Source: Butyrivibrio proteoclasticus B316 (lineage in GTDB: Bacteria; Bacillota; Clostridia; Lachnospirales; Lachnospiraceae). Taken from it: a DNA stretch of 64,000 bases. Below are positions 4,326 through 38,858 of this stretch, one piece after another. The position numbers and the translations under genes were made by a program. The stretch lies in the NCBI RefSeq assembly GCF_000145035.1, contig NC_014387.1:1664001-1728000 (forward strand), written 5' to 3'. Numbering within the stretch: the first letter of the stretch is position 1; each line of letters begins with the position of its first letter. Under the pieces are notes generated by a model. The model saw only the letters and a program-made list of their open reading frames with translations, made no database searches and was not told where the DNA came from.

Positions 4326-5405
4326 ATGTCACGAGTTTACAATTTTTCTGCCGGACCAGCAGTTTTACCTGAGGAGGTTCTCAAACAGGCTGCTGCAGAG
4401 ATGCTTGATTACAATGGATGTGGAATGTCTATCAACGAGATGAGCCACAGATCCAAGACCTTTGATAATGTTATCCAGACTGCTGAACAGGATATCAGAG
4501 ATCTTATGAATATCCCTGATAACTACAAGGTGCTATTTTTACAGGGCGGAGCAAGCCAACAGTTTGCAGCTATTCCCCTTAATCTTATGAAGAATAAGAA
4601 GGCTGCATACATTATCACCGGACAGTGGGCCAAGAAAGCTTATCAGGAAGCACAGAAATATGGCGAAGCTATAGAAGTGGCCTCGAGTGCAGACAAGACA
4701 TTCTCATATATCCCTGATTGTTCAGATCTGGATATTCCGGAAGATGCTGATTATGTATACATTTGCGAGAATAATACGATTTATGGAACTAAGTTTAAGA
4801 CACTTCCTAATACCAAGGGCCATATTCTTGTTTCGGATGTTTCATCCTGCTTTTTATCAGAACCTGTAGATGTTACCAAGTATGGCGTTATCTACGGTGG
4901 AGTTCAGAAAAACGTAGGACCAGCCGGACTTGTCATCAGCATTATCAGGGAAGACCTCATAACAGATGATGTTCCATCCTACACACCTACAATGCTCAAG
5001 TGGAAAACACAGGCAGATAACGGATCTTTATATAACACACCTAACTGCTGGAGCATTTATATGTGCGGCCTTGTGTTCAAATGGCTCAAAGAGCAGGGAG
5101 GCCTCGAGGAAATGAAGAAGAGAAATGAAGCCAAAGCCAAGATTCTCTATGATTATCTTGATCAGAGCAAGATGTTTAAGGGGACAGTAAGACCTGAGGA
5201 TCGTTCTCTTATGAATGTGCCATTTGTTACAGACAGCGAGGAGCTTAATGCTAAGTTTATAGCAGAAGCTACAAAGGCAGGCTTTGTAAGCCTTAAGGGA
5301 CACAGAACTGTAGGCGGAATGAGAGCAAGTATCTACAATGCAATGCCTATCGAGGGTGTTCAGAAGCTTGTTGACTTCATGGATGAATTTGAAAAGAACA
5401 ATTGA
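4326..5405 (+). CDS. serC: Phosphoserine aminotransferase
   Basis: PLP enzyme converting 3-phosphohydroxypyruvate and glutamate to phosphoserine in serine synthesis. 359 residues is the normal length. The N terminus RVYNFSAGPAVLPEEVL is diagnostic for SerC, the GGASQQF segment binds PLP phosphate, and the Schiff-base lysine is in GGVQKNVGPAG (about Lys195). The C terminus has the family HRTVGGMRASIYNAM motif. Start ATG with AGGAGGAG at 4312-4319. It is followed 23 bp later by serA, so the two consecutive steps of the pathway are encoded as an operon. Confidence 0.97.
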   Translation: MSRVYNFSAGPAVLPEEVLKQAAAEMLDYNGCGMSINEMSHRSKTFDNVIQTAEQDIRDLMNIPDNYKVLFLQGGASQQFAAIPLNLMKNKKAAYIITGQWAKKAYQEAQKYGEAIEVASSADKTFSYIPDCSDLDIPEDADYVYICENNTIYGTKFKTLPNTKGHILVSDVSSCFLSEPVDVTKYGVIYGGVQKNVGPAGLVISIIREDLITDDVPSYTPTMLKWKTQADNGSLYNTPNCWSIYMCGLVFKWLKEQGGLEEMKKRNEAKAKILYDYLDQSKMFKGTVRPEDRSLMNVPFVTDSEELNAKFIAEATKAGFVSLKGHRTVGGMRASIYNAMPIEGVQKLVDFMDEFEKNN

Positions 5406-5428: not shown

Positions 5429-6598
5429 GTGTACAAGTATAAATGCATGAATCCGATCGCCAAGATTGGTCTTAATAATTTTACTGACAAGTATGAGGCC
5501 GTAGATAATGTAGATGACGCTGACGGAATCCTTGTCAGAAGTGCTAACATGCTGGAAATGGATTTTTCTGATAACCTTCTTGCGATTGCACGCGCCGGTG
5601 CCGGCGTTAACAATATTCCGATTGATAAATGTGCCGGAAAAGGAATAGTTGTTTTTAACACTCCGGGAGCTAATGCTAACGGTGTTAAGGAAATGGTACT
5701 TGCTGCTATGTTACTTGCAAGCCGAGATATCATTGGCGGAACAGAGTGGGTTAAGGCAAATGCAGGTGATCCGGATATTGCTAAGCTTACAGAGAAGAGC
5801 AAAAAGAAATTTGCCGGAACTGAGATCTTTGGTAAAAAGCTTGGAATCATCGGACTTGGCGCTATTGGTGTAAGAGTCGCAAATGCGGCAAGACAGCTGG
5901 GCATGGAGGTATATGGATATGATCCATATCTTTCAATTGATGCGGCATGGAGACTGTCTTCAGATGTTAAGCATGTTACTAATGTTGATGATATTTACTC
6001 TAAGTGCGATATTATTACAATTCATGTTCCTGCCCTTGATTCTACAAAGGGTATGGTTAATGAGGCTGCTATTTCCAAGATGAAGAAGGGAGTGATCCTC
6101 ATCAACCTTGCAAGAGATATTCTTTGTAATGAAGCAGATGTTCTTGCGGGAATCAATTCCGGAAAGATCCGCAAATATGTAACTGATTTCCCAAATCCTA
6201 CTATTGCAGGACATGACGGATGCATTGTTATTCCTCACCTTGGAGCTTCAACTGAGGAATCTGAAGATAACTGTGCTGTTAAGGCGGTTCTTGAACTCAA
6301 GGATTATCTCGAAAATGGTAATATTAATAACTCTGTTAATCTTCCTAACTGTGATATGGGAGTGTGCGCCGGACCAAGACTTGCCATCATCCACAAGAAT
6401 GTAGCCAATATGATCAGTCAGTTTACATCATTCCTTGGAAATGCGGGTTACAATATCAAGGATATGAGCAATAAGTCAAGGGGAGACTATGCATATACAC
6501 TAATTGACCTTGAAGATGAGATTGAAGATGCAATTGTAAGTAAGATAGAAAAAATCGATGATGTAATAAGAGTGAGAATAGTTCGCAAGGACGTGTAA
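5429..6598 (+). CDS. serA: D-3-phosphoglycerate dehydrogenase, short form
   Basis: NAD-dependent oxidation of 3-phosphoglycerate to 3-phosphohydroxypyruvate, first step of serine synthesis. It starts with GTG at 5429 behind AGGAGG (5415-5420). Substrate-binding residues lie near ILVRSANM, the Rossmann motif GLGAIG at about residue 142, the conserved Arg in NLARDILCNE and the catalytic His in PHLGASTEESEDN. A C-terminal ACT-like segment (about 325-389) fits the 389-residue short class. Oddity: the Glu that pairs with the His in the E. coli enzyme (in FPTEP) has no clear counterpart, the same place reading TDFPNPT. I believe this is common in clostridial SerA. It lies 23 bp after serC. Confidence 0.94.
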   Translation: MYKYKCMNPIAKIGLNNFTDKYEAVDNVDDADGILVRSANMLEMDFSDNLLAIARAGAGVNNIPIDKCAGKGIVVFNTPGANANGVKEMVLAAMLLASRDIIGGTEWVKANAGDPDIAKLTEKSKKKFAGTEIFGKKLGIIGLGAIGVRVANAARQLGMEVYGYDPYLSIDAAWRLSSDVKHVTNVDDIYSKCDIITIHVPALDSTKGMVNEAAISKMKKGVILINLARDILCNEADVLAGINSGKIRKYVTDFPNPTIAGHDGCIVIPHLGASTEESEDNCAVKAVLELKDYLENGNINNSVNLPNCDMGVCAGPRLAIIHKNVANMISQFTSFLGNAGYNIKDMSNKSRGDYAYTLIDLEDEIEDAIVSKIEKIDDVIRVRIVRKDV

Positions 6599-6654: not shown

Positions 6655-6720
6655 ACATTCGGACATCATTAATATTTTTATTATAGTTTGTTGTTTAGAC
6701 TTTTTGTTGGGAGGACTATT

Positions 6721-7959
6721 ATGGCTGATATCAAGCCTTTTAAGGCATTTAGACCGGCACAGGGTCTTGAGGGGAAAATAGCATCTTTACCTTATGATGT
6801 TTTTAACAGACAGGAAGCTTATGAAAAGGTACAAAGAGAGCCGGATTCATTTCTTGCTATAGACAGGCCTGAAACACAGTTTGAGCCGGGACATGATATG
6901 TATGCTCGGGAAGTTTATGACAAGGCCCGGGACATGCTACAGGCCAAAATGGCAGATGGCTCTTTTATACAGGATGAGAACCCTTGCTATTACATATATG
7001 AGCAGACTATGAATGGACGAACTCAGACTGGAATTGTCGCTTGTGCTTCCATTGATGATTATCTGGGTAATGTTATTAAAAAGCATGAGAACACCAGAGA
7101 GGAAAAGGAACAGGACAGGATAAATCATGTTTATACCTGTCAGGCTCAGACTGGCCCTATTTTTCTCTGCTACAGGAAGAATAAGCTGATCTCGGATCTT
7201 GTTGATAAGGTTAAAGAGGTTGATGAACCTATATATGATTTTGTTTCTGAAGATGGTGTCAGAAATAGGATCTTTATTATCTCTGATCTTGAGGAAACCG
7301 AGACTATTTGCAGGGTATTTACTACTATTAATTCTATTTATATAGCTGACGGACATCACAGATGTGCTTCTGCGGTCAAGGTTGGACTGAAAAAAAGAAA
7401 AGAGCTTGAAGGAAAAATTCGAGGAAAACTTGATTCTGACTATTTCCTGTCAGTTCTTTTCCCTGATGATGAGCTTATGATCATGGACTATAACAGAGTC
7501 GTCAAGGACCTTAATGGCTTATCTTCCAGCGAGTTTATGGATAAGCTAAAGAATTTGTTTGAAGTCACTGAGTCAGATGCTCAGGTTAAGCCATCTTGTA
7601 AAGGGGAATACGGGCTTTATCTTGACAATAAGTGGTACAGGCTTAATGCCAAAGATAGTATCAAATCATCGGATCCGGTAAAAGGGCTTGACGTATCGGT
7701 GCTACAGGATAATGTACTAGGACCGGTTCTTGGAATCGGAGATCCGAGGACAGATAAGAGAATAGATTTTGTTGGCGGCATCAGGGGACTTGATGAACTT
7801 GAAAAGAGATGCCATACAGACTGCAAACTTGCGTTTTCTCTTTATCCAACATCTATTTCCGAGCTGTTTGACGTGGCGGATGCAGGGCTTTTGATGCCTC
7901 CTAAGTCTACCTGGTTTGAGCCCAAGCTTCTTAGTGGCTTGTTTATACATGGCATTTGA
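6721..7959 (+). CDS. DUF1015 family protein
   Basis: Function unknown. The ATG at 6721 (MADIKPFKAFRPAQG) is chosen over an upstream in-frame start because it is preceded by GGGAGGA and because family members begin with this P-F-(K/R)-x-x-R-P pattern. It is about 412 residues, the usual length. Family signatures visible: SLPYDVFN near the N terminus, HENTREEKEQDR, and the central IADGHHRCASA motif, whose histidines suggest a metal or nucleotide site (inference). DUF1015 genes are frequently neighbours of serA/serC in Firmicutes, and here it follows serA by 122 bp, although a terminator lies between them. Confidence 0.85.
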   Translation: MADIKPFKAFRPAQGLEGKIASLPYDVFNRQEAYEKVQREPDSFLAIDRPETQFEPGHDMYAREVYDKARDMLQAKMADGSFIQDENPCYYIYEQTMNGRTQTGIVACASIDDYLGNVIKKHENTREEKEQDRINHVYTCQAQTGPIFLCYRKNKLISDLVDKVKEVDEPIYDFVSEDGVRNRIFIISDLEETETICRVFTTINSIYIADGHHRCASAVKVGLKKRKELEGKIRGKLDSDYFLSVLFPDDELMIMDYNRVVKDLNGLSSSEFMDKLKNLFEVTESDAQVKPSCKGEYGLYLDNKWYRLNAKDSIKSSDPVKGLDVSVLQDNVLGPVLGIGDPRTDKRIDFVGGIRGLDELEKRCHTDCKLAFSLYPTSISELFDVADAGLLMPPKSTWFEPKLLSGLFIHGI

Positions 7960-8036: not shown

Positions 8037-10574
8037 GTGACAAGTAAACTGTATAAAATGATGAACTGGCCCGAGATTGAAGAGATTATCTATTCTGATG
8101 GCGATAATCCTCATAGAATACTCGGCGCACATAAAGTTGGGAGCAGTTATCTGATTCAGGCTTTTTATCCTGATGCAGATACTATTAAAGTGAGGGTTGA
8201 GCAGACAGGCAAGGAATATGAGATGGAACTTGCGGATGAGGCAGGTTTTTTTGCAGCGCTGATTCCTTATACTGATAAGCTCAAATATAAGTTTGTTATC
8301 AAGGACGCAGAGGGTAAGGAGATTGTCAAAGATGATCCCTATGCCTTCGGACCTCTTATGGATAGAGAGGATTTCATTAAATTCGGAAGTGGCATTCACT
8401 ACCATATTTATGAGAAACTTGGCGCTCATCCTATGGTCAGAAATTCAGTTGCAGGTACAGAGTTTGCTGTATGGGCGCCTTCTGCTGCAAGAGTCAGTGT
8501 TATTGGAGACTTTAACAATTGGGATGGCAGAACATGCCAGATGCACAGACTGGATCCTATAGGCATCTTTGAGATTTTTATTCCGGGAGCTGCGGAAGGT
8601 GATGGATACCAGTTTGAAATTAAGACCAGAAGCGGACTTGTCTATAAAAGACCGGATCCTTTTGCTTTTGAATCAAAAGGAGAAAATGGAGTTATTTCTG
8701 TTGTCAGAAGTCTGAAGCAGATCAGATGGACTGATGAGAAATGGCTTGCGCAGCGCAGCAAATTTGAACTCGATGAAGACCCGCTTTCAATTTGTGAGAT
8801 TTCTCTTGAGGCATTTGCTGACAGACATAATGATAAGAGCAGTATGAAGGAAATTACTGCCGATATTCTTGAGTATGTCAAGAACCATGGCTTTAACACT
8901 ATTGAACTTATGCCTGTAATGAAGCATCTTCCGGGACATTTTTATCATATCATGGACTTTTTTGCCCTGGATAATTCAAGCGGAAATACAAATGAGTTTA
9001 TGGAATTCGTTAATACCATGCATAATTCCGGTGTCAGAGTGATCCTTGACTGGGTTCCGACATTTTTCCCTAAGTCATCATGCGGGCTTAGTGATTTTGA
9101 CGGAAGGCCTCTGTTTGAGTATGAAGATCCCAGAATTGGAGTTCATCCCAAGTCAGGAGATATGATCTTTGACTATGGACGTAAGGAGGTTACTAACTTC
9201 CTTATTACAAACGCTCTTTACTGGATTGAGAATTTCCATATTGATGGTCTTAGAACATCCGACATTTCAAGAATTCTATACCTTGATTATGACAGAAAAC
9301 CCGGTGAGTGGCTGCCTAATATCTATGGCGGTAATGAGAATCTTGAGGCTCTTGAATTCCTCAAACAGTTCAATACTATTATTCACAAGAATAATCCGGG
9401 AATTATAACAATTACCAAAGAAACAGCCTGCTGGCCGCAGCTTACAGACAGTGTAGATGAGGGCGGACTTGGCTTTGACTTTAAGTGGAACAATGGTTGG
9501 ACAAGAGATTTCCTTTCATATATGCAAAATGATCCTCTATTTAGAGCAGGACATCACGATGAGCTGACATTCAGTCTCATATATAGCTATACTGAGAGGT
9601 TTGTACTAGCATTTACTCACGAGGATGTTGAAAAGGGACTCGAGGGCCTGTATTATCTGATGCCTGGTGATTCCTCACAGAAGATGGCTAATTTGCGACT
9701 TGCTCTTTCGTTTATGATGGTACACCCCGGACGTAAGCATCTGTACATGTCGCCTGATGCCCTTACAATTGATCAGTCTGTGTTTGTGGAGAATATCCTC
9801 AAAAAGCTTAATGAACTTTATTATGATCACGATGCTCTTCACGAACTTGATGGATCTGATAAGGGATTTGAATGGATCAACAATATGGCTTCTGATCAGT
9901 GCATGCTTTCATTTATCAGAAAGAGTACCGGTGACATGGAAACTCTTCTTGTTGTCGCTAATATGGCAGGAGTTGAGAGAGAATATGAGATTGGTGTTCC
10001 TGTAGATGGAAGATACACTGAGATATTTAACAGCGATAACCTCAGTTATGGCGGAACAGGTATCTTAAATGAAGGCAGGATTGAATCAAAGAGAAATGAT
10101 ATAGATGGCAGAAATTACAGCATTTCTATTAAGATTGCTCCTGTTTCTCTTGCTATCTTTAGCTTTACTCCTTATACAGAGCAGGAAAAGAAAATCCGTG
10201 CAATTAAGGAAGAAGAGGAAATAAGGAAAGAAAAAGAGCGCCAGGAAGCTTTAGAAGCTCTTAAGGAAAAACAGAGCCTCGAGGAGCAGAAACTCCTTGA
10301 ACAGCTCAAGCTCAAATATGAAAAAGAGCTTGCGGAGCAGGAAAAAGCTATTGAAGAAAAATATGAGAAGATTGAGGAAGAGAGAATCTTTAGCATTGTC
10401 ACAGATGCTGCCGTAAAGGGACTTAGCGCAGGAAAAAAGGCTGCGGACAGCAAAAAGACAGCTAAGTCTGCAGATAAGGTATCCAAGACATCATCCAGGA
10501 CCGGCTCAAAGGAAACTTCAAAAACAGCAAAAAAGCCTGTTCCTAAAAAGACAAGCGGTAAATCCAAGAAATAA
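8037..10574 (+). CDS. GlgB-like (GH13 branching-enzyme family) protein with substituted catalytic residues and a charged tail
   Basis: The overall layout is that of 1,4-alpha-glucan branching enzyme: an early-set beta domain (FAVWAPSAARVSVIGDFNNW), a GH13 barrel and a C-terminal beta domain. Against my recollection of E. coli GlgB, all key positions differ. The nucleophile region HIDALRVD reads HIDGLRTSD (Ser408), AEEST reads TKETA (Lys461), SHDEV reads THEDV (Glu529) and GHFP reads TFFP (Phe343). From about residue 715 a Glu/Lys-rich coiled coil runs into a Lys/Ser/Thr tail, giving 845 residues against about 640-730 normally. Start GTG behind GGAGGGG (8024-8030). It is followed by a terminator. 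Likely an inactive glucan-binding paralogue or an altered enzyme; a simple glgB label may mislead. Confidence 0.85.
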   Translation: MTSKLYKMMNWPEIEEIIYSDGDNPHRILGAHKVGSSYLIQAFYPDADTIKVRVEQTGKEYEMELADEAGFFAALIPYTDKLKYKFVIKDAEGKEIVKDDPYAFGPLMDREDFIKFGSGIHYHIYEKLGAHPMVRNSVAGTEFAVWAPSAARVSVIGDFNNWDGRTCQMHRLDPIGIFEIFIPGAAEGDGYQFEIKTRSGLVYKRPDPFAFESKGENGVISVVRSLKQIRWTDEKWLAQRSKFELDEDPLSICEISLEAFADRHNDKSSMKEITADILEYVKNHGFNTIELMPVMKHLPGHFYHIMDFFALDNSSGNTNEFMEFVNTMHNSGVRVILDWVPTFFPKSSCGLSDFDGRPLFEYEDPRIGVHPKSGDMIFDYGRKEVTNFLITNALYWIENFHIDGLRTSDISRILYLDYDRKPGEWLPNIYGGNENLEALEFLKQFNTIIHKNNPGIITITKETACWPQLTDSVDEGGLGFDFKWNNGWTRDFLSYMQNDPLFRAGHHDELTFSLIYSYTERFVLAFTHEDVEKGLEGLYYLMPGDSSQKMANLRLALSFMMVHPGRKHLYMSPDALTIDQSVFVENILKKLNELYYDHDALHELDGSDKGFEWINNMASDQCMLSFIRKSTGDMETLLVVANMAGVEREYEIGVPVDGRYTEIFNSDNLSYGGTGILNEGRIESKRNDIDGRNYSISIKIAPVSLAIFSFTPYTEQEKKIRAIKEEEEIRKEKERQEALEALKEKQSLEEQKLLEQLKLKYEKELAEQEKAIEEKYEKIEEERIFSIVTDAAVKGLSAGKKAADSKKTAKSADKVSKTSSRTGSKETSKTAKKPVPKKTSGKSKK

Positions 10575-10580
10575 TGACAT

Positions 10581-10617
10581 AAAATCCTCTGCAAGATAAG
10601 TTCTTGCAGAGGATTTT
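10581..10617 (+). terminator. Intrinsic terminator after the GlgB-like gene
   Basis: A perfect 16-bp stem AAAATCCTCTGCAAGA (10581-10596) / TCTTGCAGAGGATTTT (10602-10617) with a 5-nt loop. Its A- and T-tracts are symmetrical, so it could stop transcription on either strand. Confidence 0.85.
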
Positions 10618-35501: not shown

Positions 35502-35708
35502 TTGGACCGAAGTGCCGACCAAGGGTTAACGGTTATCGAATATAACTGTTATTACCGGCATCAGGAGATCTTAGATTCCCGACCGATAGAAGGAATCATC
35601 CGCATTTTCACGCATCCGTCCAAAATTTAAGTGAAAACTGTAACCGGGATTACTATCAAAAAAGTTCCCGTATACTGTCACTTGATCATTTTTGGAGGAC
35701 TTTGCCTT
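35502..35708 (+). promoter_or_regulatory. Structured 207-nt leader upstream of flgE
   Basis: No gene is supported here. Several inverted repeats stack up: TGCCG (35513-35517) with CGGCA (35556-35560) enclosing TAACGGTTAT (35527-35536) with ATAACTGTTA (35542-35551); GATTCC (35574-35579) with GGAATC (35592-35597); TTTTCAC (35605-35611) with GTGAAAA (35631-35637); and CGGGA/TCCCG around 35645-35671. The flgE ribosome site GGAGG (35694-35698) follows. An in-frame GTG at 35631 could add 26 residues to FlgE, but they have no family match and no ribosome site. Confidence 0.6.
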
Positions 35709-38700
35709 ATGATGAGATCATTATATTCTGGTGTTGCTGGTCTTAAGACCCACCAGACCAAGATGGATGTTATTGGTAACAACATTGCCAACGTTAACAC
35801 CACATCTTTTAAATCACAGTCTATTACATTCTCAGACCTTATGTATCAGACAACTCAGACAGCATCAGGTGCCACAGAGACCAAGGGTGGTGTAAATGCA
35901 CGCCAGATCGGTCTTGGTGCCAAGTCAGGTGCTATCAATACAGCGATTACTTCTCAGGGAGCTACTCAGACAACAAATAACCCATTTGATATCATGATAA
36001 CTGGTGAGTCTTTCTTTATCGTTAATAACGGTAATGAGAACCTCTATACAAGAGATGGCTCTTTCTACGTAGACGGTGCCGGAAACCTTGCGATGCAGTC
36101 TAATGGTTATCTTGTACAGGGCTGGAAGGCAGTAGAAGACAGAGATACTGGAGAAATTACAATCAGTAAGGGTGAGCTTACAGGACTTCAGATCATGAGC
36201 CCTGAGAACAGCACATATTCACCAGCATCAACAACATCATCATTATTCAGCGGAAATATTGATGATTTCGATTCAAACCTAACTTCTGATGATGGTAAGA
36301 CTATTACTCTTGAGTTCTATGACAACAAGGGTTATCTCTATACAGGAAAATTTACACTTAAGGATACAGAAACTGAGCACTTATTTGCTCTTACACTTAC
36401 AGATATTATCGATTCTAACGGAAAGTCTATCAATGACAATCCAGAAGGAATAGACAGACTTAGCCTTATTACTCTTGGAGATCAGACCAATACTAAGGCA
36501 AGATCACAGACAACAAAAGTTCAGCAGGGATACACACCAGTACAGTCTGTAGACTCAACTAAGATTACAATCAACAAGGATGGCGGCGATATCAAATATG
36601 ATAACGTTGCTAAGCATGGTAATCTTGTTGACCTTATGAGTTCAGCAACAACTAATGCTAAGACAGCAAACCTCCTTCAGGATGCTTATGATCTGTCTGA
36701 TGACAAGATCAAAGAGCTCTATGGTGAGACTCTCTTCAAGGAAGCTGAATACGATATAGCTACTAATGGCGATATTACAGTAACATTTGCGAAGCCAGAT
36801 CTTTCATCACTTCCTTATGATGCAAATACTTTCCAACAGGTAGATTTTGGAACAAAGAATACTGATGAGTACTTCACAAATGCTGCTTCTCAGAAGGCAT
36901 ATAAAGTTCCTTCATCTCAAGGCGGCAAGAAAGATGCATCAGATCTTACAACAGATTTTCTTAAGGATGTATTTAATATCACAACAGATTATACAGCAAC
37001 TGATGCCAGCGGAAAGGCATTATATTCTTACACTTACGGAAGTGGTAAGCTTTCAATATACAAGAATATAGAACTAAATCCTACAACAACTTCAGGTAGA
37101 CCAATTGCTGATATATATACAGCCGGTTCTTCAGCAGATATTTCACAGTATTTTGGAACATCTTCCAGTGCAGCAGATACTCTTCATACTGTTATTGAAA
37201 ACTGGGCTTCTACAGCAGGAAATGATATAAGCAAGCTTTCTTATACATATTCTGCAAGTGGAGAACTTACAATTACTCAGAAAGTAACTCAGCCGGCTGA
37301 TAATTATACTGATGAAGCTCAGCTTACAGGAGTTGTATCAGCAGATGCTACTGTTTTAGATGGGAAACTAGTAAAAGGAACAGATGGATATACGACTTAT
37401 GCAGATGTTTTAGCTATTGCTCAGGATACAACCCCTACATATTCTGCTGAAGAGATAGCAACAGCACAGGCAGTTGTTGATAAAATGGACGATATATATG
37501 CAACATTAGGTACAACTACTACTGCAGCAGACGTTTCTGGTCTTTCATTTAAGTTTGGAACGTTAACTGGAACTCCTGCTATAGTTGTTAAATATCCTTC
37601 AACAGAAGAAGTAGAGAAGGGATTCCCAGATGCAGCTTTATCATCAACAACGTATGTTGCAAGAGCTGTTGAGTATGATAAAGCTTATGTAAGTGACTAC
37701 ACAAAGACAACACCATCTTATGTATATCAGAACAGAAGTACCTATGGAACATCTTATTACGTACTTGATAATGCGCTTACAAGAGATGATGTTACAGCTA
37801 CAAATATCAACGCAGATTTTCTTAAAGCAGTATTTGCTGGAAAATCTGCTGATATTCAAGACTTTATAAACAATATGGGAACTGGAACCTTCACAATGTC
37901 GATATCAAAAGAAGGTTACGTTACATTCTTGCACAAAGAAACAAGCGGAACACCACATAGTAAGCTTGAAAAGTATACTATTGATACTAATGAAGATGGA
38001 ACAATCAGATATTCCACATCTGCAGCTTATGAAGATGTACCTGCAACAGGAAATATCAGCGATCTTTTAGAGACAGCCAAGGGCGAATATGCAGGTCTTT
38101 TGAAGAAAGTATATGGAATATCTGATGAGGCAGCTGATGCCTTCGGTATTGATGGAACATACTCAATCGATAATACACCTGGATCATCAAACTACGGAGC
38201 AATGACACTCAATGTTGGTAAGCATTCTATTACACTTGAGTTCAAACCAGAAAATGGTGTTATTGGAGCTGTTGACGGAAACACAGATGCAGCAATGACT
38301 GTTGACCTTCACTTTGATCAAACTGAGGGCTATGGACTTGAGCCATTCGGTTTCCAGGCATCTGCTACTAACGCTGATGAGCAGGATAGAGCAGGAAATA
38401 TTACAATTGATTTCTCTACAGTAACTAACTACAACACTAACGGATCATCAACAATCAAGGCAGTTAAGGGTGATAAGAAGAGTCTTAACACAGGACGAGC
38501 AGTTGGTGAGATGAATGGCGTTTCAATTTCAACAGATGGACAGATCTATGCTACATATTCAAATGGCCAGACCAAACTCCTTGGACAGATTGCATCTGCA
38601 GAGTTTGCTAACGCATCAGGTCTTTCTAAAGAGGGTGACAACCTCTATGCATCAACTCTTAACTCAGGTGAAGCTACAGTACAGGATATCACAACTGATG

Positions 38701-38858
38701 GCGGCTATATGAATACAGGAGTACTTGAAATGTCCAACGTAGACCTTTCATCACAGTTTACTGAGATGATCACAACTCAGCGTGGATTCCAGGCAAACAG
38801 CCGTATCATCACAGTATCAGATACACTTCTTGAGGAACTTACAAACCTTAAGAGATAA
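35709..38858 (+). CDS. flgE: Flagellar hook protein FlgE, greatly enlarged
   Basis: Forms the universal joint between rod and filament. ATG 35709 lies 10 bp after GGAGG. The ends are canonical: MMRSLYSGVAGLKTHQTKMD then VIGNNIANVNTTSFKSQ, and at the C terminus GVLEMSNVDLSSQFTEMITT, QRGFQANSRIITVSDTLLEE and LTNLKR. At about 1,049 residues it is more than twice the usual 400 or so. The excess is a Thr/Ser/Asp/Ala-rich central region (about 280-860) with internally similar segments (GNLVDLM..LLQDAYDLSDD against GNISDLL..LLKKVYGISDE). This probably forms extra surface domains on the hook. Followed by a terminator. Confidence 0.95.
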   Translation: MMRSLYSGVAGLKTHQTKMDVIGNNIANVNTTSFKSQSITFSDLMYQTTQTASGATETKGGVNARQIGLGAKSGAINTAITSQGATQTTNNPFDIMITGESFFIVNNGNENLYTRDGSFYVDGAGNLAMQSNGYLVQGWKAVEDRDTGEITISKGELTGLQIMSPENSTYSPASTTSSLFSGNIDDFDSNLTSDDGKTITLEFYDNKGYLYTGKFTLKDTETEHLFALTLTDIIDSNGKSINDNPEGIDRLSLITLGDQTNTKARSQTTKVQQGYTPVQSVDSTKITINKDGGDIKYDNVAKHGNLVDLMSSATTNAKTANLLQDAYDLSDDKIKELYGETLFKEAEYDIATNGDITVTFAKPDLSSLPYDANTFQQVDFGTKNTDEYFTNAASQKAYKVPSSQGGKKDASDLTTDFLKDVFNITTDYTATDASGKALYSYTYGSGKLSIYKNIELNPTTTSGRPIADIYTAGSSADISQYFGTSSSAADTLHTVIENWASTAGNDISKLSYTYSASGELTITQKVTQPADNYTDEAQLTGVVSADATVLDGKLVKGTDGYTTYADVLAIAQDTTPTYSAEEIATAQAVVDKMDDIYATLGTTTTAADVSGLSFKFGTLTGTPAIVVKYPSTEEVEKGFPDAALSSTTYVARAVEYDKAYVSDYTKTTPSYVYQNRSTYGTSYYVLDNALTRDDVTATNINADFLKAVFAGKSADIQDFINNMGTGTFTMSISKEGYVTFLHKETSGTPHSKLEKYTIDTNEDGTIRYSTSAAYEDVPATGNISDLLETAKGEYAGLLKKVYGISDEAADAFGIDGTYSIDNTPGSSNYGAMTLNVGKHSITLEFKPENGVIGAVDGNTDAAMTVDLHFDQTEGYGLEPFGFQASATNADEQDRAGNITIDFSTVTNYNTNGSSTIKAVKGDKKSLNTGRAVGEMNGVSISTDGQIYATYSNGQTKLLGQIASAEFANASGLSKEGDNLYASTLNSGEATVQDITTDGGYMNTGVLEMSNVDLSSQFTEMITTQRGFQANSRIITVSDTLLEELTNLKR

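Follow-up and report, generated by a model that had tools for sequence, protein, structure and literature searches.

The GlgB2 gene and its domains

The DNA analyzed here, called the window, is a stretch of 64,000 nucleotides from Butyrivibrio proteoclasticus B316 (contig NC_014387.1, positions 1,664,001 to 1,728,000 of the forward strand), whose genome comprises 4.40 Mb in four contigs. Its element of interest is a gene for a protein of the branching enzyme (GlgB) family, which we designate GlgB2; the same genome also codes for an intact copy, GlgB1. GlgB2 is a conserved pseudoenzyme under purifying selection, in which the frame and the fold are kept and the GH13 active site has been dismantled. 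The features of the gene are listed below in window coordinates, with residue counts taken from 47 Butyrivibrio loci.

8037..10574, + strand: GlgB2, GlgB-family protein with a dismantled GH13 active site, 845 amino acids; single open reading frame (ORF), GTG start
8046..8141, + strand: residues 4-35, the best-conserved stretch in the Butyrivibrio comparison (LYKxMNWPEIEEIIYS...PHRILGAHKVG); helices at residues 3-8 and 11-18 in the model
8067..8342, + strand: GlgB_N domain, residues 11-102 (Pfam PF22019)
8415..8666, + strand: CBM48, residues 127-210, a candidate glucan-binding module (Pfam PF02922, 94 bits)
8784..9836, + strand: degenerate GH13 (beta/alpha)8 barrel, about residues 250-600 (Pfam, AlphaFold2 model)
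9063..9065, + strand: Phe343 at the region-I His position (F 36, Y 5, T 4, L 1, S 1)
9258..9260, + strand: Ser408 at the nucleophile Asp position, strand 4 (S 32, P 7, T 6, A 2)
9261..9263, + strand: Asp409 (47/47 in Butyrivibrio; Ala in 97% of 98 loci from outside the genus that keep all three carboxylates)
9417..9419, + strand: Lys461 at the acid/base Glu position, strand 5 (K 42, R 5)
9621..9623, + strand: Glu529 at the stabilizing Asp position, after strand 7 (E 43, D 4)
9732..9782, + strand: shortened loop after barrel strand 8, residues 566-582, 17 residues (alignment)
9873..10163, + strand: Alpha-amylase_C beta domain, residues 613-709 (Pfam PF02806)
10179..10406, + strand: long charged helix, residues 715-790, its second half with an 11-residue hydrophobic repeat (AlphaFold2, shuffle test)
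10416..10571, + strand: Lys/Ser/Ala/Thr tail, residues 794-845, net charge +15, predicted local distance difference test score (pLDDT) under 50 (model, composition)

The order of domains, GlgB_N, CBM48, GH13 barrel and C-domain, is that of functional GlgB in both the Pfam scan and the AlphaFold2 model, and the homology to branching enzymes lies far beyond chance (E 1.7e-150). GlgB2 exceeds NCBI's curated cut-offs for the branching-enzyme models TIGR01515 and NF008967, and automatic annotation would thus tend to label it active. The GH13 Pfam match is weak (46.6 bits) and covers residues 275-341 only. With 26 near relatives as input, the AlphaFold2 model had a mean pLDDT of 64.9 and was poor in the active-site region; a 79-row alignment raised the mean to 82.5, and only that second model entered the structure search.

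The active site

The preliminary description of this gene, made from the sequence without database searches, had proposed that Ser408, Lys461, Glu529 and Phe343 replace the nucleophile Asp, the acid/base Glu, the stabilizing Asp and the region-I His, respectively. The catalytic roles are those that we take to be standard for GH13 enzymes. The motifs of GlgB2 align without gaps with both the Cyanothece branching enzyme 5gqz and the intact GlgB of its own genome, so that the four residues do occupy these positions and the proposed substitutions are confirmed. In the model, Ser408 marks the end of barrel strand 4 and Lys461 that of strand 5, with Glu529 just past strand 7 (strand numbering is our own). 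The YAPT region is likewise lost, GlgB2 reading FALD there.

None of the 47 Butyrivibrio loci has Asp at the nucleophile position. The strand-8 loop has 17 residues in all 47, which is 16 residues below the usual length; it has at least 33 in 96 of the 98 out-of-genus loci with three carboxylates. Homologs with the same substitutions were sought, and among the window protein and its 120 best-listed homologs Lys461, Glu529 and Phe343 are found in 121/121 and Ser408 in 111/121. Those close homologs that bear an organism name, among the matches listed, are Butyrivibrio.

Asp409, Glu462 and Asp530 had been named in the preliminary description as carboxylates that might sit in the active site instead. 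As alternative catalytic residues they are rejected because of the gap-free alignment, the short loop and the variability of residue 530, which is D, N or E in the same 121 proteins; Glu462 corresponds to the second Glu that the EES motif ordinarily has. The invariance of Asp409 in Butyrivibrio indicates that this residue matters, and it sits one residue past the nucleophile position. From these alignments it is near certain that GlgB2 is dead as a branching enzyme.

Conservation and selection within Butyrivibrio

GlgB2 was found in 75 of the 79 genomes of the genus, and 74 of the 79 show two GlgB matches; completeness is 60-72% in the four genomes that lack GlgB2. The catalytic residues were read for 47 of these 75 genomes, and an additional one reads FSKE at the region-I His, nucleophile, acid/base and stabilizer positions. 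The 47 frames range from 797 to 871 amino acids; one of them is truncated at a contig end, and the remaining 46 are full length, with 82-156 residues past the core. Stop codons are listed inside the matched stretch for 14 of the 75 genus matches, and the frames are full length among those read.

The ratio of nonsynonymous to synonymous substitution rates (dN/dS) of GlgB2 against 16 congeners was 0.037-0.086 with a median of 0.070 (14 pairs with defined dS), compared with 0.016-0.024 for GlgB1 (4 of 16 pairs usable) and 0.035-0.085 for the adjacent DUF1015 gene (4 of 15 pairs usable), all of these ratios being approximate because dS is close to or beyond saturation in most cases. Within GlgB2, dS was defined in 15/16 pairs for CBM48 plus barrel, 3/16 for the helix and 7/16 for the tail; the helix ratio of 0.009 rests on three pairs and is therefore not used. 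Median dN was 0.153 for GlgB2, 0.062 for GlgB1 and 0.182 for DUF1015; inside GlgB2 it was 0.111 for CBM48 plus barrel and 0.128 for the helix, which is thus barrel-like. The earlier view that the frame is intact and has been retained by selection is borne out by the single 845-codon ORF and by this purifying selection. That GlgB2 is a conserved pseudoenzyme follows from the losses in 47/47 Butyrivibrio loci and in the close homologs, the low dN/dS and the presence of an intact GlgB elsewhere in the genome.

Residues 4-35 of the window protein have a median identity of 0.91 to those of 17 deep Butyrivibrio, the other measured regions reaching 0.49-0.65, and the first 32 residues are the sole portion of the GlgB_N region that stands out. 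Seven sites that are at least 95% conserved in the 98 out-of-genus three-carboxylate loci are fixed differently in Butyrivibrio, for instance A409D, G419D and M486N.

The intact paralog and the glycogen genes

A second, intact glgB, which the preliminary description had suggested looking for, is present: GlgB1 lies at C1:71286-73172. In Butyrivibrio, GlgB1 reads HDED at the four positions given above in 20 of the 20 copies read. A GlgA gene is present in the same genome. Two tandem pairs of GlgC/GlgD type were also seen, at C1:387275-389627 and C1:1280432-1282671, each with one member above the GlgD cut-off and the other below it. Glycogen inclusions have been reported for B316, according to the part of the source consulted (PMC2914790).

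Relatives outside the genus and repeated loss

A search of the Lachnospiraceae gave a match at 1e-150 in 198 of 299 genomes and none in the other 101. Among the places listed, we read 120 GlgB_N-bearing loci from outside the genus, which come from 116 of the 196 genomes that gave a match. Of these loci, 98 keep all three carboxylates and 22 have lost at least one, a proportion that gives no unbiased rate given this sampling and a batch that favored the lowest-scoring listed rows. Among 80 records chosen by closeness to an intact relative, 79 read HDED and one RDED; a class-wide sample of GlgB from outside the family (14 loci, L337-L350) reads HDED and has 0-26 residues past the core.

Two further groups were observed. 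Loci L127 and L140 have three carboxylates by alignment, and their strand-8 loops are 16 and 11 residues long and the region-IV His is lost; they would pass as active on a motif check alone. They are counted as intact among the 98 loci and in the Fisher test below, and as degenerate in the domain comparison and the second-copy tree. In L177, L068, P0123-P0126 and P0140 the nucleophile and the acid/base are kept, whereas the region-I His is replaced by Q and the stabilizer by E, A, Q or T (E or T in L177 and L068). This group is possibly a half-way state in the loss of the active site. On one GlgB2 tree it is sister to Butyrivibrio (support 91); on a tree of second GlgB copies, G310 (the genome of L068) stands beside Butyrivibrio, and G215 (that of L177) stands with G341 instead.

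Among GlgB2 trees, one gave 6 status changes or, counted otherwise, 10 all-lost clades (FastTree), and others gave 9 changes (82 rows) or 4 (81 rows, L127 omitted). A single clade of all lost rows is only marginally rejected (approximately unbiased test, p 0.048). Long branches pull the lost rows together on such trees, so the status was also mapped on the tree of second copies, mostly GlgB1, which serves as a stand-in for a species tree and is built from the fetched second copies only. It has 70 rows, 11 of them Butyrivibrio and 21 lost, the odd genomes G119 and G314 being included; a few second copies of 750-770 amino acids may be GlgB2-like duplicates. This tree requires 14 status changes, at least seven of them forced by well-supported branches, and no long end branch was flagged. 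More than one loss of catalysis is well supported, and the independent losses were probably several.

Each of the 22 genomes from outside the genus whose GlgB2 is degenerate carries a further GlgB; 19 of these 22 second copies were fetched and all 19 read HDED. A single GlgB occurs in 17 of the 94 other genomes, and all 17 are intact (Fisher p 0.04, ignoring relatedness).

Which domains survive the loss

A consensus was derived from 96 intact loci and compared with 96 intact, 47 Butyrivibrio and 24 other degenerate rows. In that order, identity to the consensus was 0.55, 0.53 and 0.53 for GlgB_N; 0.75, 0.63 and 0.67 for CBM48; 0.79, 0.48 and 0.54 for the barrel; and 0.63, 0.45 and 0.56 for the C-domain. 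After the loss the barrel, normally the best-kept part, drifts, and GlgB_N stays equally near the consensus. In locus L129, for instance, the barrel is invisible to Pfam at E 0.001, while CBM48 scores 108 bits and GlgB_N 96 bits. This domain-specific retention suggests that GlgB2 has a non-catalytic function, and from the kept CBM48 and GlgB_N it is plausible that the protein binds glucan. The KLYK-LMNW...PH..LG motif is partly common to intact close relatives and hence predates the loss.

The helix and the basic tail

The coiled coil of the preliminary description is upheld as far as the helix is concerned, since the model has one long helix at residues 715-790, but no heptad repeat rises above shuffled sequences: 1789 of 2000 and 2522 of 5000 shuffles were as good. 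A single alpha-helix stabilized by E-K spacing was also considered and rejected (1356 of 2000 shuffles as good). A weak 11-residue repeat in the second half of the helix does rise above shuffled sequences, 45 of 5000 being as good, a value uncorrected for the several tests run. The sequence of the end tail drifts between congeners (median dN 0.534). An antisense ORF of 140 amino acids (window 10172-10594, - strand) mirrors the Lys-rich tail and is probably an artefact of composition.

The tail had been thought to be an addition that came with a change of function, and this view is not sustained. At least 50 residues lie past the core in 54 of the 98 out-of-genus three-carboxylate loci, and those tails of intact relatives that were inspected are charged and Lys-rich; such tails are therefore older than the loss in Butyrivibrio. 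The GlgB2 of locus L063, with its catalytic residues intact, ends in a tail with a roughly 10-residue Lys-rich repeat. In the window protein, charge is the one feature of the tail that would point to the binding of nucleic acid suggested earlier.

The neighborhood

Three genes of a conserved neighborhood precede GlgB2 in the window.

4326..5405, + strand: serC, phosphoserine aminotransferase
5429..6598, + strand: serA, phosphoglycerate dehydrogenase (Pfam domains, context)
6688..7959, + strand: DUF1015 protein, immediately upstream of GlgB2 (Pfam)

The best NCBIfam models for serA do not reach their cut-offs; the gene is therefore named mainly from its Pfam domains and its context. DUF1015 lies within 500 bp upstream of GlgB2 in 41 of the 47 Butyrivibrio loci, and serA, serC or DUF1015 lies upstream on the same strand in 25 of the first 40 out-of-genus loci. 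Genes with intact residues occupy the same locus (22 of 34 among those 40); the location thus predates the loss and is no pointer to a new job. DUF1015 adjoins GlgB2 in other Lachnospiraceae too, often together with serA. A search for solved relatives of the DUF1015 protein found none, and the open-access literature search gave unrelated papers only.

Further downstream, seven ORFs scanned at window 26191-57049 are flagellar or chemotaxis genes, among them those for FliF, an export ATPase, FliK, a hook or rod protein, a CheC/FliN-type protein, FHIPEP and CheA. The hook-like protein (window 35631-38858) is long, at 1075 amino acids.

Proposed function and alternatives

We propose, with a probability of about 0.6, that GlgB2 is a non-catalytic, glucan-binding GlgB paralog that acts as a scaffold or partner in glycogen metabolism. 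It would be a second GlgB paralog of the Lachnospiraceae, presumably inherited as a branching enzyme with the C-terminal extension already in place. In the ancestor of Butyrivibrio the nucleophile and the acid/base would have been replaced, the stabilizer mostly by Glu, and the cleft loop shortened, the branching reaction being left to the intact GlgB1. GlgB_N and CBM48 may hold the glycogen particle, and partners such as GlgB1 or GlgA may be held by the nearly invariant N-terminal segment together with the long helix and the basic tail, the tail serving as a charged anchor. GlgB2 might in this way set where or how the glycogen enzymes work, as has been proposed for the plant isoamylase ISA2, a catalytically dead paralog, with ISA1. 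A wider version of the proposal, which we put forward tentatively and hold to be somewhat less probable than not, is that GlgB2 of the Lachnospiraceae docked, by way of GlgB_N, CBM48 and the N-terminal segment, onto the glycogen particle and onto partners before any loss, and that branching, being dispensable, was lost repeatedly where GlgB1 was present, which would have left organizers of glycogen with dead barrels.

Several observations weigh against this scaffold or partner function. The neighbors of GlgB2 are serine genes and not glycogen genes. GlgB2 evolves faster than GlgB1 (median dN 0.153 versus 0.062), the dN/dS ratios are approximate, and among close congeners the GlgB_N region (residues 1-110) is not slower than CBM48 plus barrel (median dN 0.168 versus 0.111). 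In Butyrivibrio the identity of CBM48 to the consensus has gone down from 0.75 to 0.63, and this, together with the rate of GlgB_N, speaks against simply assuming that glucan binding has been preserved in full. Fewer than 10 residues lie past the core in 7 of the 22 degenerate out-of-genus genes, so the tail is dispensable in some of them. The words "glgB" and "branching" are absent from the main text of the paper on the cytosolic proteome of B316 (PMC5217386).

Among the alternatives, GlgB2 could form a hetero-oligomer with GlgB1 in which it is the non-catalytic subunit; plant ISA2, a partner of ISA1 in the part of the source consulted, offers a precedent for this (PMC12510319). The copy pattern fits such a dependence, given that degenerate genes are always accompanied by another GlgB (22/22) and that the 17 of 116 genomes with a single GlgB are all intact, but redundancy by itself accounts for this, relatedness does not enter the Fisher test and a part of the genomes is incomplete. 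Bacterial GlgB, moreover, is usually described as working alone, and we would give this arrangement perhaps one chance in four. A little less probable still is a non-catalytic job outside glycogen, in which the GlgB fold is the platform for a regulator tied to the serC-serA-DUF1015 neighborhood or for a tail that binds nucleic acid or polyphosphate. The closeness of DUF1015 in most Butyrivibrio loci, the serine or DUF1015 genes upstream in 25 of 40 loci elsewhere and the strongly basic tail would all suit it; against this, the intact genes share the locus, which is older than the loss, GlgB_N keeps its distance to the consensus and CBM48 keeps most of it.

Two further explanations have very little to recommend them. 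That GlgB2 is still an enzyme, acting through Asp409, Glu462 and Asp530 or with a new reaction, draws on the invariance of Asp409 in the genus and on the presence of both Asp409 and Glu462 in 121/121 close proteins; it is highly improbable given the gap-free motifs, an ordinary EES Glu, a variable residue 530, the lost region-I His and a strand-8 loop shortened in every Butyrivibrio locus. Even less credible is a dying gene kept by chance only. The barrel has indeed drifted far beyond that of intact loci, and 14 of 75 matches list internal stop codons; yet 46 of 47 frames are full length, dN/dS is about 0.07, residues 4-35 are near invariant and new residues have been fixed across the genus.

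Comparison with known systems

Among the known systems closest to GlgB2 are the GH13 branching enzymes of Cyanothece (5gqu-5gr6), Mycobacterium tuberculosis (3k1d) and Escherichia coli (1m7x), from which it differs in its replaced catalytic residues and region-I His, its short strand-8 loop, and its long helix and basic tail. Also close to it are the intact GlgB2 proteins of other Lachnospiraceae, such as those of Parablautia intestinalis (L281), Eisenbergiella porci (L266) and Anaerobium acetethylicum (L296), which keep the three carboxylates. Intact proteins of this kind resemble the window protein in having the same four Pfam domains (seen in L044 and L035, both of which were scanned), a similar N-terminal motif, in many cases the same locus and in part the charged tails.

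A survey of the open-access literature by title and start of abstract, with subscription journals and preprints outside it, found no report of a catalytically dead bacterial GlgB. The B. hungatei paper, in the part consulted, lists an 824-amino-acid glgB2 as a branching enzyme (PMC5716241); from its name, length and domains we infer that it is an ortholog of GlgB2. Dead GlgB2 may have raised the number of branching enzymes counted in gut and rumen genomes, and if the organizer function proposed above is correct, databases still call these dead-barrel proteins branching enzymes. Catalysis has probably been lost several separate times in this one gene, in many cases at the same locus, which amounts to a natural experiment in which the surviving parts point to the non-catalytic function.

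The proposed role has two parallels in plants. Arabidopsis At5g39790, with a carbohydrate-binding domain and a coiled-coil segment, has been proposed as a starch scaffold, according to the part of the source consulted (PMC2653042). GlgB2 has a candidate carbohydrate-binding domain as well, and its long helix shows a weak 11-residue repeat and no heptad signal; the two proteins have no whole-length relationship. The Arabidopsis protein is presumably the one later named PTST, and we take it to be without a GH13 barrel. The other parallel is ISA2, the non-catalytic paralog bound to ISA1 that was cited above. ISA2 and GlgB2 are alike in being a non-catalytic copy beside an active paralog in alpha-glucan metabolism, and ISA2 is, we assume, a GH13 member too; they differ in that ISA2 belongs to the debranching family and binds ISA1, whereas GlgB2 belongs to the branching family and its partner is only proposed. 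If the proposal is true, GlgB2 would be a bacterial counterpart of the putative non-catalytic starch organizers of plants, in a glycogen-storing genus of the rumen.

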